DNA from: a virus
DNA: 41,033 nucleotides
IMG/VR virus record: IMGVR_UViG_3300022924_000010
Span: 1 to 41,033 of that record
Reading direction: 5' to 3' (one strand)
Shown: in pieces, positions 5,806 through 7,350 of the stretch
How positions within the stretch are numbered: position 1 is the first letter of the stretch
Layout of the letters: each line of letters opens with the position of its first letter
The notes under the pieces: model-generated
Databases searched by the model: none
Told to the model about the DNA's origin: nothing
What the model saw: the letters and a program-made list of their open reading frames with translations, nothing else
Program-made: the position numbers and the translations under genes

Positions 5806-5937
5806 TTAAGATTGTCTAGCTATCATATAACAGGCGATACCACACATAACGATAATTATTAATGCAATACCAACCAATATCCATACACCATTATCAACTT
5901 TGTCCTCGTTTGGTCTGTACGGTTTATTTACTTTCAT
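5806..5937 (-). CDS. Small single-span membrane protein (43 aa)
   Basis: A 43-residue ORF with a polar N-terminus (KPYRPNEDKVDNG) and one hydrophobic segment, residues about 19-38 (WILVGIALIIIVMCGIACYM). It overlaps the holin-candidate gene by 14 bases. It could be a spanin-like or holin-accessory protein, given its position next to the endolysin cluster. Confidence 0.55.
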   Translation of the reverse strand: MKVNKPYRPNEDKVDNGVWILVGIALIIIVMCGIACYMIARQS

Positions 5938-6211
5938 CTGTTGTGGTGTTTGCTGTTATGTTAACTTCTGCAGTAGTAGATCCCGGTAATAGTGGAGGCT
6001 TTGGCTTGGCATTAAGAACACCCCCAAAGTATAGTGCTAAAATAGTACTTGCCGATCCAGATATAAACCCAATGATCAAAGTAAGTATTTCGGTCTTATC
6101 GCCAAACCTTACGATTATATACCCGATCAATATCCAAACGGCTATGATTGAAATGTAAGCTATTCCGCTTCGTGTTCTCTGGTCGAGGTCGTGTTTTACT
6201 TCTTCTGCCAT
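5924..6211 (-). CDS. Candidate holin, two-span membrane protein (95 aa)
   Basis: Two predicted transmembrane segments (residues about 17-36, IAYISIIAVWILIGYIIVRF, and 42-65) after a charged N-terminus. The C-terminus is long, polar and Pro/Thr-rich. Size and topology fit a class II phage holin that would release the M15 endolysin. Its ATG shares an A with the stop of the HNH gene (TAATG); before the HNH insertion this was probably the endolysin-holin junction. Function is inferred from context. Confidence 0.55.
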   Translation of the reverse strand: MAEEVKHDLDQRTRSGIAYISIIAVWILIGYIIVRFGDKTEILTLIIGFISGSASTILALYFGGVLNAKPKPPLLPGSTTAEVNITANTTTDESK

Positions 6212-6780
6212 TATACTAATTGTATGTGTGGTAAATCCTTACTTTTTCTGGCATCTTTAATTTCCTTCATTACTTTCCCTATTATAATCATTTCTTCATG
6301 AGTAAAATTATCCATTCTCGCTACATTACAATCTTTACAACAAGGAACACAATTATCTACAGTATGCCCTTTTGTATTTAATATTCTATCAAAACCAGTA
6401 GGCGTATACCCACAATAAAAACAATTTGATTTAAAAACTTCTAAAATATGAACCCAAGTCATATCATTTTCAAAGCCTCTTTTCTGATCAAATTTTCTAT
6501 AAGCACTAGCTAATTGTATTGCTCTTCCTTTTGGGGTTGAACAATAAAGCTTACCATTTTTATAATGCTTTAATTTTTCCTCTTCTGTAAAAAGCCTATA
6601 TCTACTTGGTCTCGGATTATTAAAATTTCTTAATCTACTTCTATTGTTTTCACAAGACCTACATGTGTACATAAATCCAGAAGCCCTACTTTTATCTTTG
6701 TAAAAATTTATATGTAAAAGCTCTTTTTCTAACAAACACATACTACATTTTTGAAACTTTACAGTTAAATCCATAACCAT
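6211..6780 (-). CDS. HNH homing endonuclease inserted at the endolysin 3' end
   Basis: HNH-type nuclease (189 aa). A zinc-binding CSMC pair lies near residues 12-15 and CRSC near 40. The catalytic domain includes CFYCG, TGFDRI and VDNCVPCCKDCNVARMD. The pattern is the ββα-metal HNH variant with Asp (FDRI) at the first position and final Asn (CKDCN). The last nine residues, KDLPHIQLV, repeat the C-terminus of the adjacent M15 endolysin, with six of nine codons changed synonymously. This suggests that the nuclease inserted into the endolysin 3' end while a recoded copy kept the endolysin intact. Confidence 0.85.
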   Translation of the reverse strand: MVMDLTVKFQKCSMCLLEKELLHINFYKDKSRASGFMYTCRSCENNRSRLRNFNNPRPSRYRLFTEEEKLKHYKNGKLYCSTPKGRAIQLASAYRKFDQKRGFENDMTWVHILEVFKSNCFYCGYTPTGFDRILNTKGHTVDNCVPCCKDCNVARMDNFTHEEMIIIGKVMKEIKDARKSKDLPHIQLV

Positions 6781-6792
6781 AAATATACGAAT

Positions 6793-6828
6793 AATTAGTG
6801 GGGCATCAAAAAAACTACCCCACTAATT
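6793..6828. repeat. 11-bp inverted repeat around the endolysin stop codon
   Basis: AATTAGTGGGG (6793-6803) and CCCCACTAATT (6818-6828) are perfectly complementary with a 14-base loop containing the endolysin stop (6815-6817). On the minus strand it forms a hairpin between the endolysin and HNH genes. No clear T-run follows, so it may be a processing or regulatory hairpin, or a scar of the HNH insertion. Confidence 0.75.
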
Positions 6829-7231
6829 GTATATGAGGAAGGTCTTTGAAACGCCAAACTCCCCCCCATTCAACTTTAATTCCTAAAGTCTTTGCAGTTG
6901 ATAGGATATGATTTGCAATCGTTCTAAAGTTACTTTCGGTATTCCAATCCAATTGACCGTTTACATAAGGGCAAAAATCAATCGCATGACCGAAACCATC
7001 TGCTTTAATTTGATGATTAGATTTCGCCTTCACGCCGTCTGCATTGGTCACGATTGCCCCCTTAGTTGTTCTACCTTGAGCATATAACGCTTTTTGTTCT
7101 GCCGTAGTACGTACACCACTAATAACACTAAAATCAATAGGTGTATCTTTAATAGCTTCTTCGATAACCTTAACTAAATTCGGGTGTACTCCTTTTAATT
7201 TAGCTTTACTGTTTTCGCCTAATACTGCCAT
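6815..7231 (-). CDS. M15-family peptidoglycan peptidase (endolysin)
   Basis: Zinc metallopeptidase of the M15 D-Ala-D-Ala carboxypeptidase / L-Ala-D-Glu endopeptidase group (138 aa). The SGVRTTAEQKALYAQGRT block and the VTNADG block are typical. His in KSNHQ, Asp in FGHAIDF and His in DLPHIQ are the likely zinc ligands. It should cleave peptide bridges of the host wall at lysis. The ATG at 7231 overlaps the upstream stop (TGATG) and is preferred over a GTG one codon earlier. It has no signal peptide, so export would need a holin. Its C-terminal KDLPHIQLV is duplicated in the downstream HNH gene. Confidence 0.9.
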   Translation of the reverse strand: MAVLGENSKAKLKGVHPNLVKVIEEAIKDTPIDFSVISGVRTTAEQKALYAQGRTTKGAIVTNADGVKAKSNHQIKADGFGHAIDFCPYVNGQLDWNTESNFRTIANHILSTAKTLGIKVEWGGVWRFKDLPHIQLVG

Positions 7232-7350
7232 CACATAAAATATTTAAATTCGATCGCTGTTTCAATCATGAATAAACAAATAAGGATAATAACAAGCGCA
7301 ACTACGCGTACCTTTTTATCCTCAATCAAATTGTTTCTTAGCTGATCCAT
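7231..7350 (-). CDS. Small single-span membrane protein upstream of endolysin (39 aa)
   Basis: A 39-residue ORF with a charged N-terminus (DQLRNNLIEDKKVR) and one hydrophobic segment (VVALVIILICLFMI). Its stop overlaps the endolysin ATG (TGATG). A TATATTTG box at 7354-7361 on the minus strand lies only 3 bases before its ATG, too close for a normal leader. It may be a pinholin-like or anti-holin peptide, by position. Confidence 0.55.
   Translation of the reverse strand: MDQLRNNLIEDKKVRVVALVIILICLFMIETAIEFKYFM

Follow-up and report, generated by a model that had tools for sequence, protein, structure and literature searches.

An HNH endonuclease gene between two codon-different endolysin tails suggests C-terminus exchange by a free-standing homing element in phages

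The window, a stretch of 41,033 nucleotides covering positions 1 to 41,033 of the IMG/VR virus record IMGVR_UViG_3300022924_000010, carries three consecutive genes on its minus strand, which encode an M15 endolysin, an HNH endonuclease, and a holin-like small membrane protein, in this order (Table 1). The endolysin was assigned by profile searches (PF13539, E = 3.2e-9; phrog_465, E = 2.3e-49). The label "holin" rests on gene position and hydrophobicity, as no Pfam or PHROG family matched this protein at threshold. The inverted repeat around the endolysin stop codon had a predicted RNA fold of -25.1 kcal/mol (z = -4.85). Short hairpins likewise precede the HNH start in the related loci L020, L139, L142, and L144, and they perhaps limit HNH expression. 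All loci given here with L numbers are metagenomic or genome contigs, except for that of ESh4 and its relatives.

Table 1. Features of the endolysin-HNH-holin region of the window
Feature	Position	Strand	Remarks
M15 endolysin gene (L-Ala-D-Glu peptidase type)	6815..7234	-	139 aa from GTG 7234; ATG also at 7231
Endolysin working tail KDLPHIQLVG and stop	6815..6847	-	Sequence; codons 6847..6815 AAA GAC CTT CCT CAT ATA CAA TTA GTG GGG TAG; probable replacement C-terminus brought by the element
Occupied left junction			Endolysin body + AAAGACCTTCCTCATATACAATTAGTGGGG
Perfect 11-bp inverted repeat AATTAGTGGGG / CCCCACTAATT	6793..6828	-	Extends across the endolysin stop and immediately precedes the HNH start
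HNH endonuclease gene	6211..6780	-	189 aa; N-terminal zinc ribbon and PacI-like HNH core
Homologous HNH core	6247..6780	-	Alignments; ends at the near-invariant Arg178 codon (6249..6247)
KDLPHIQLV and stop, fused to HNH	6211..6240	-	Sequence and homologous remnants in L135, L143, L146, L205, and L213; codons 6240..6211 AAG GAT TTA CCA CAC ATA CAA TTA GTA TAA; probable stranded native endolysin tail
TAATG, stop of the HNH-fused tail / start of the holin-like gene	6209..6213	-	Sequence
Gene of the holin-like small membrane protein, behind the element	5924..6211	-	ORF

The nine C-terminal residues of the HNH protein are identical to those of the endolysin tail (9/9), and six of the nine codons (7 nt) differ between the two copies, all synonymously. 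The chance of a nine-residue match to any C-terminus within the window is ~1e-9. Both this identity with synonymous codon differences and the position of the TAATG junction, now behind the HNH gene, had been pointed out in the original prediction and were recovered from the sequence and its open reading frames. The span given there was 6211-6860; the gene itself occupies 6780..6211, and 6860 reaches into the endolysin tail.

The nuclease lies outside any intron or intein, with a complete endolysin reading frame upstream of it. A search of the locus with the Rfam intron models gave no match at E ≤ 1 and a weak Thr_leader alone; a group I intron was rejected, as neither an intron core nor a family match was found in Rfam. 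The best PHROG match of the HNH protein was phrog_1035 (E = 1.5e-20), labelled "endonuclease VII". Members of the DHHRN/endonuclease VII family are recognized by a DHDH motif with an invariant first His (H41 of Endo VII) (PMC6083498). In the window protein this His is missing, the aligned position being Asp131-Arg132 (FDRILNTKGH), and despite the phrog_1035 label, 0 aligned HNH members have a His after that Asp. The Endo VII/DHHRN homing family (F-CphI) was therefore rejected. The protein matched the PacI profile (E = 5.8e-7, including GVDR..CxxCN..EM..LG), and a Foldseek comparison of its model with PacI (PDB 3LDY) gave E = 7.7e-6 and a probability of 1.00 at modest TM scores of 0.39/0.51, making PacI its best solved relative by profile and fold. 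With its G-x-D-R motif, its CxxC pairs, and these sequence and model matches, the window HNH can be classified as PacI-like. PacI itself acts as a restriction enzyme and recognizes 8 bp. Position 122 of the HNH is a Tyr (CxYC) in the window and other members and a His (CxHC) in members of inverted orientation, such as L143; PacI has a Tyr, its proposed general base, at the aligned position.

Homology of the HNH protein to its relatives stops at Arg178, immediately ahead of the tail. In the AlphaFold model the last helix comprises residues 161-179 (pLDDT 89.6), and KDLPHIQLV beyond it is modelled with low confidence. The frame of most relatives continues past the equivalent of Arg178 into whatever DNA adjoins, and that of L133 stops right after the Arg.

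Close relatives were gathered by pattern scans and subsequent HMM scoring, which yielded 15 distinct members including the window. All 15 are located at the 3′ end of an M15-type peptidase gene, with the assignment for L133, L136, L140, and L135 based on motifs judged by eye. Seven have the orientation of the endolysin (window, L020, L064, L132, L133, L136, and L140), and eight are inverted and overlap the endolysin end (L131, L135, L138, L139, L142, L143, L144, and L146), with the final endolysin codons read antisense to the HNH C-terminus. The more distant relatives L021, L125, and L127-L129 do not lie at endolysin 3′ ends. The HNH of L021 (2605-3480) has three tandem zinc-ribbon-like stretches and no adjoining endolysin, and is found upstream of the same type of gene as that behind the HNH of L132. 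An assembly artefact is unlikely, as L145/L146, L133/L134, and L136/L137 recur across separate assemblies and the phage backgrounds of L205 and L213 differ. The strict-pattern clade scan detected no HNH relative in genome contigs, nor did an HMM search of 395 + 385 genomes of two bacterial classes, while all 15 clade records, included as positive controls, were matched. These elements therefore look largely confined to viral records, as far as the partial sampling goes. One 77-kb contig, IMGVR_UViG_3300022919_000004 (L070, L072), has two endolysins, only one of them with the HNH, and may represent two joined phages or a tandem prophage.

Two endolysin tails are present in four clade members (window, L135, L143, and L146) and also in L205/L213, which have a different HNH at the same site. 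In these loci the working tail is attached to the endolysin, and the second is stranded past the HNH beside the holin. In L135 both copies read PMHFQWAHE-stop and show 5 nt (stop counted) and 0 aa differences. The stranded tails are GPHWELDRRVYPAK-stop in L143 and PHWELDRRVYPAK-stop in L146, and in L205/L213 HWELDRRVYPAK-stop forms the in-frame end of the different HNH. The second tails of L135, L143, L146, and L205/L213 all reached the lowest p attainable with 500 shuffles (p = 0.002). The endolysin-attached tail is identical in amino acid sequence to the stranded one in the window and L135 and only similar in L143, L146, and L205/L213. In 11 of the 15 clade members a clear second tail is absent (L020 has LS-stop at most); in these it was either eroded or is not obligatory. 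PH-like codons past the HNH in L142, L144, and L139 were not counted as remnants, being within or next to a leader hairpin or too short. The N-terminal zinc ribbon of the L205/L213 HNH looks similar to that of the clade, and its insertion point is the same endolysin codon.

Alleles without an HNH, including L200, L208, L211, L214, and L215, end with GPHWELDRRVYPAK-stop, and the holin start follows just behind. As they were found, like L205/L213, with a pattern derived from the stranded tail, identity inside the pattern is given by construction, and gene context and flanks are independent of it. Since the HNH-free alleles carry the stranded copy as their normal tail with the holin just after it, this copy can be identified by sequence comparison as the native endolysin tail in L143, L146, and L213, and the imported one as a homologous tail from another lineage. 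The expectation that HNH-free relatives end with the tail and its stop followed by the holin was thus confirmed for tails of the PH..-stop type, but the collections searched yielded no close relative of the window phage that lacks the HNH. The endolysin closest to that of the window, L001 (76%), ends with VDLPHFELS-stop and has a different holin, and the holin-like protein used as bait retrieved no relative in an IMG/VR scan. The tail pattern DLPH[IF..][QE]LV-stop matched 12 M15 endolysins, of which 0 had the HNH tail, and hence gave no unoccupied window allele. In L207 an endolysin with a different body bears the same PHWELDRRVYPAK tail, as if it had recombined at the PH codons with no HNH involved.

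The boundaries of the insertions became visible when occupied and HNH-free loci were compared. L213 and L215 are 60/60 identical before the insert, up to CATTGG, after which L213 continues with QLDWKAYP-stop, the HNH, a second CATTGG at an offset of 506 bp, and then the native tail and holin; on the far side the two are 233/250 identical. The endolysin bodies of L146 and L211 are 335/338 identical and L146 then switches to a foreign tail of ~20 codons, where identity is 38/67; past the HNH, its native tail and holin are again 238/250 identical to L211. The sharp drop from 335/338 to 38/67, seen in this relative rather than in the window, is the pattern of flanking co-conversion. L143 diverges from L205 at AGCTTCAA, and every one of the K, D, G, P, and H codons beyond this point carries silent changes. 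The inserted unit is nearly the same in L205 and L213, whereas their endolysin bodies and holin starts differ. Presence at this one site is disjunct among the relatives, with the HNH found in L143/L146/L205/L213 and lacking in L200, L208, L211, and L215; the window belongs to no such pair. The junctions cluster at the D-x-P-H codons, which in M15 peptidases encode a zinc ligand, and because of this clustering we place the presumed HNH cut there.

The original prediction had assigned the recoded copy to the HNH. The comparisons of L143, L146, and L213 with HNH-free alleles reverse this assignment: because the stranded copy is the native one in these relatives, the HNH-fused KDLPHIQLV of the window is most likely the former tail of the endolysin, and the import would be the copy now on the endolysin. 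The codon set upstream in the window endolysin begins with AAAGACCTTCCT, and its unoccupied end would have been the endolysin body followed by AAGGATTTACCACACATACAATTAGTATAATG.

The data point with good confidence to a homing element whose endonuclease gene is free-standing. Its target would be the conserved codons around the D-x-P-H motif, close to where M15 endolysin genes end, and it would carry a substitute C-terminus for the endolysin beside the nuclease gene. From the sequences we infer that the HNH cuts, that repair involves a homologous left end and a right end that varies, and that silent differences confer self-immunity. In a mixed infection, the HNH would cut or nick the unoccupied endolysin gene near the PH codons. 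On the left, repair would copy donor DNA through the shared endolysin gene, leaving the recipient with the donor tail and donor stop; this left crossover is visible in L146 and L143. On the right, the HNH end would be joined to the broken end of the recipient, and donor and recipient may differ there; the right joins are visible as junctions at the PH or H codons. The endolysin would thus stay whole, with the nuclease installed and the old tail left past the HNH beside the holin. In the window, this presumed old tail is in frame and supplies the last nine codons and the stop of the HNH. Since the replacement restores the same motif, the target would remain uncut only if its DNA differs there or the site is split. 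Synonymous differences could keep the target uncut and could also limit recombination between the copies.

Whether the codon differences were selected is a separate matter. A real tail swap in which the differences are no more than the usual divergence of donor and recipient endolysins, recoding was not selected, and immunity comes from the insertion splitting the site has about an even chance. This reading opposes the recoding claim and not the tail swap itself. It agrees with replacement tails that range from identical in amino acid sequence (window, L135) to merely similar (L146, L205/L213), with L213, in which native codons extend as far as CATTGG and the insertion just splits the site, and with the freely varying codon use of M15 tails between phages. 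It is at odds with the two cases of several synonymous and 0 residue changes, although M15 tails elsewhere vary in residues, and with the synonymous change of K, D, G, P, and H around the presumed cut in L143. Because the tails cover this whole range, selection for recoding is possible but not established. The claim of an intron-less endonuclease at the endolysin 3′ end with a codon-different replacement was upheld by the lack of an Rfam intron and by recurrence in L135, L143, L146, and L205/L213, but "recoding" as a selected synonymous change is one end of the range of imported tails and not a general rule.

Explanations that dispense with homing or with a tail swap fared less well. Phage modules often break at gene ends, and L207 has a different endolysin body on the same tail, as illegitimate recombination of phage mosaics without homing at the site would produce; location of 15/15 members at the same gene end in both orientations, together with a different HNH at the same codon, is unexpected from random breakage and makes this improbable. 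A plain duplication of the endolysin 3′ end when the element inserted, with both copies drifting afterwards, would account for one insert flanked by two copies but is very improbable: neutrally, ~4 residue changes would be expected in the window and 0 were seen among 7 changes (P ~2e-5), the corresponding value for L135 was 2e-4, and in L146 the endolysin-joined tail is foreign in comparison with HNH-free L211, while the stranded one fits. It is scarcely credible that KDLPHIQLV has a function within the nuclease and is conserved for this reason. The tail is in frame and intact, but it occurs on the HNH of no other clade member, the stranded tails of inverted members lie outside the HNH protein, and its confidence in the AlphaFold model is low.

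A free-standing homing element with a substitute tail has its closest parallel in fungal mitochondrial mORFs (Allomyces atp6; Glomus atp6, atp9, cox2, and nad3), in which an endonuclease ORF near the 3′ end of a gene brings a foreign C-terminus fused to the gene and strands the native one past the ORF, the tail copies showing large DNA but small protein divergence (PMC3630166). The phage loci have the same architecture, which is seen directly in L143, L146, and L205/L213 and would apply to the window by homology, so the phage element appears to be a counterpart of mORFs. It is not itself an mORF, as those encode LAGLIDADG or GIY-YIG enzymes in mitochondria, whereas the window has a PacI-like HNH in a viral record; the phage loci further differ in using two HNH types, in either orientation, at a peptidase active-site motif. 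Intronless homing by SegF and MobE of T4 likewise involves a free-standing nuclease between genes, a disjunct distribution, and replacement of flanking DNA, but these enzymes typically cut in the neighbouring gene, and the passages of the review retrieved by a term search show no stranded native C-terminus (PMC2988022). No report of a tail swap in phages was found in the open-access literature. In phage ShiLan an HNH is inserted in a methylase without intron or intein, and the first 11 in-frame residues of the element are similar to the 11 that follow the insertion site, a resemblance discussed by the authors solely as a potential intron signature (PMC11855218). Although this insertion is mid-gene and read through in frame, with the HNH in another frame, the 11-residue repeat may be a replacement copy following the same logic as the endolysin tails.

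How a free-standing homing gene can insert into an essential gene without an intron and without killing its host has been an open point, and the phage loci suggest an answer, namely, that a substitute C-terminus arrives with the element and the old one is stranded. The stranded tails locate the insertion to the exact codon, so that the sequence itself indicates the likely cut site, the left crossover, and which DNA stems from donor or recipient. Endolysin C-termini would also be swapped by selfish elements. The engineered HomeR home-and-rescue gene drive is aimed at the 3′ coding end of an essential gene, for which it supplies a re-coded rescue of 22-27 aa (PMC7968924). It is a Cas9 system in flies and hence an analogy of logic only, but the phage loci offer a natural parallel to such re-coded rescue drives. 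With somewhat less than even confidence, we propose a natural phage "home-and-rescue" drive, in which the tail would be selected to encode the same or an equivalent protein with different codons at the site of its own nuclease, thereby rescuing the cut essential gene, resisting re-cutting, and avoiding recombination with the stranded native tail; different nucleases would have arrived independently at the M15 zinc-ligand codons, making these a hot spot.

Stranding without homologous replacement seems to occur as well. In ESh4 (L126, 2498-3070), an HNH relative lies between the tail genes K and I. HNH-free K ends with KYDFEGN-stop or KYDFKGN-stop; in ESh4 the HNH ends with DYDTEND-stop in the frame of the lost tail of K, and K receives an unrelated new end. 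The stretch concerned, however, includes part of the beginning of gene I as well.
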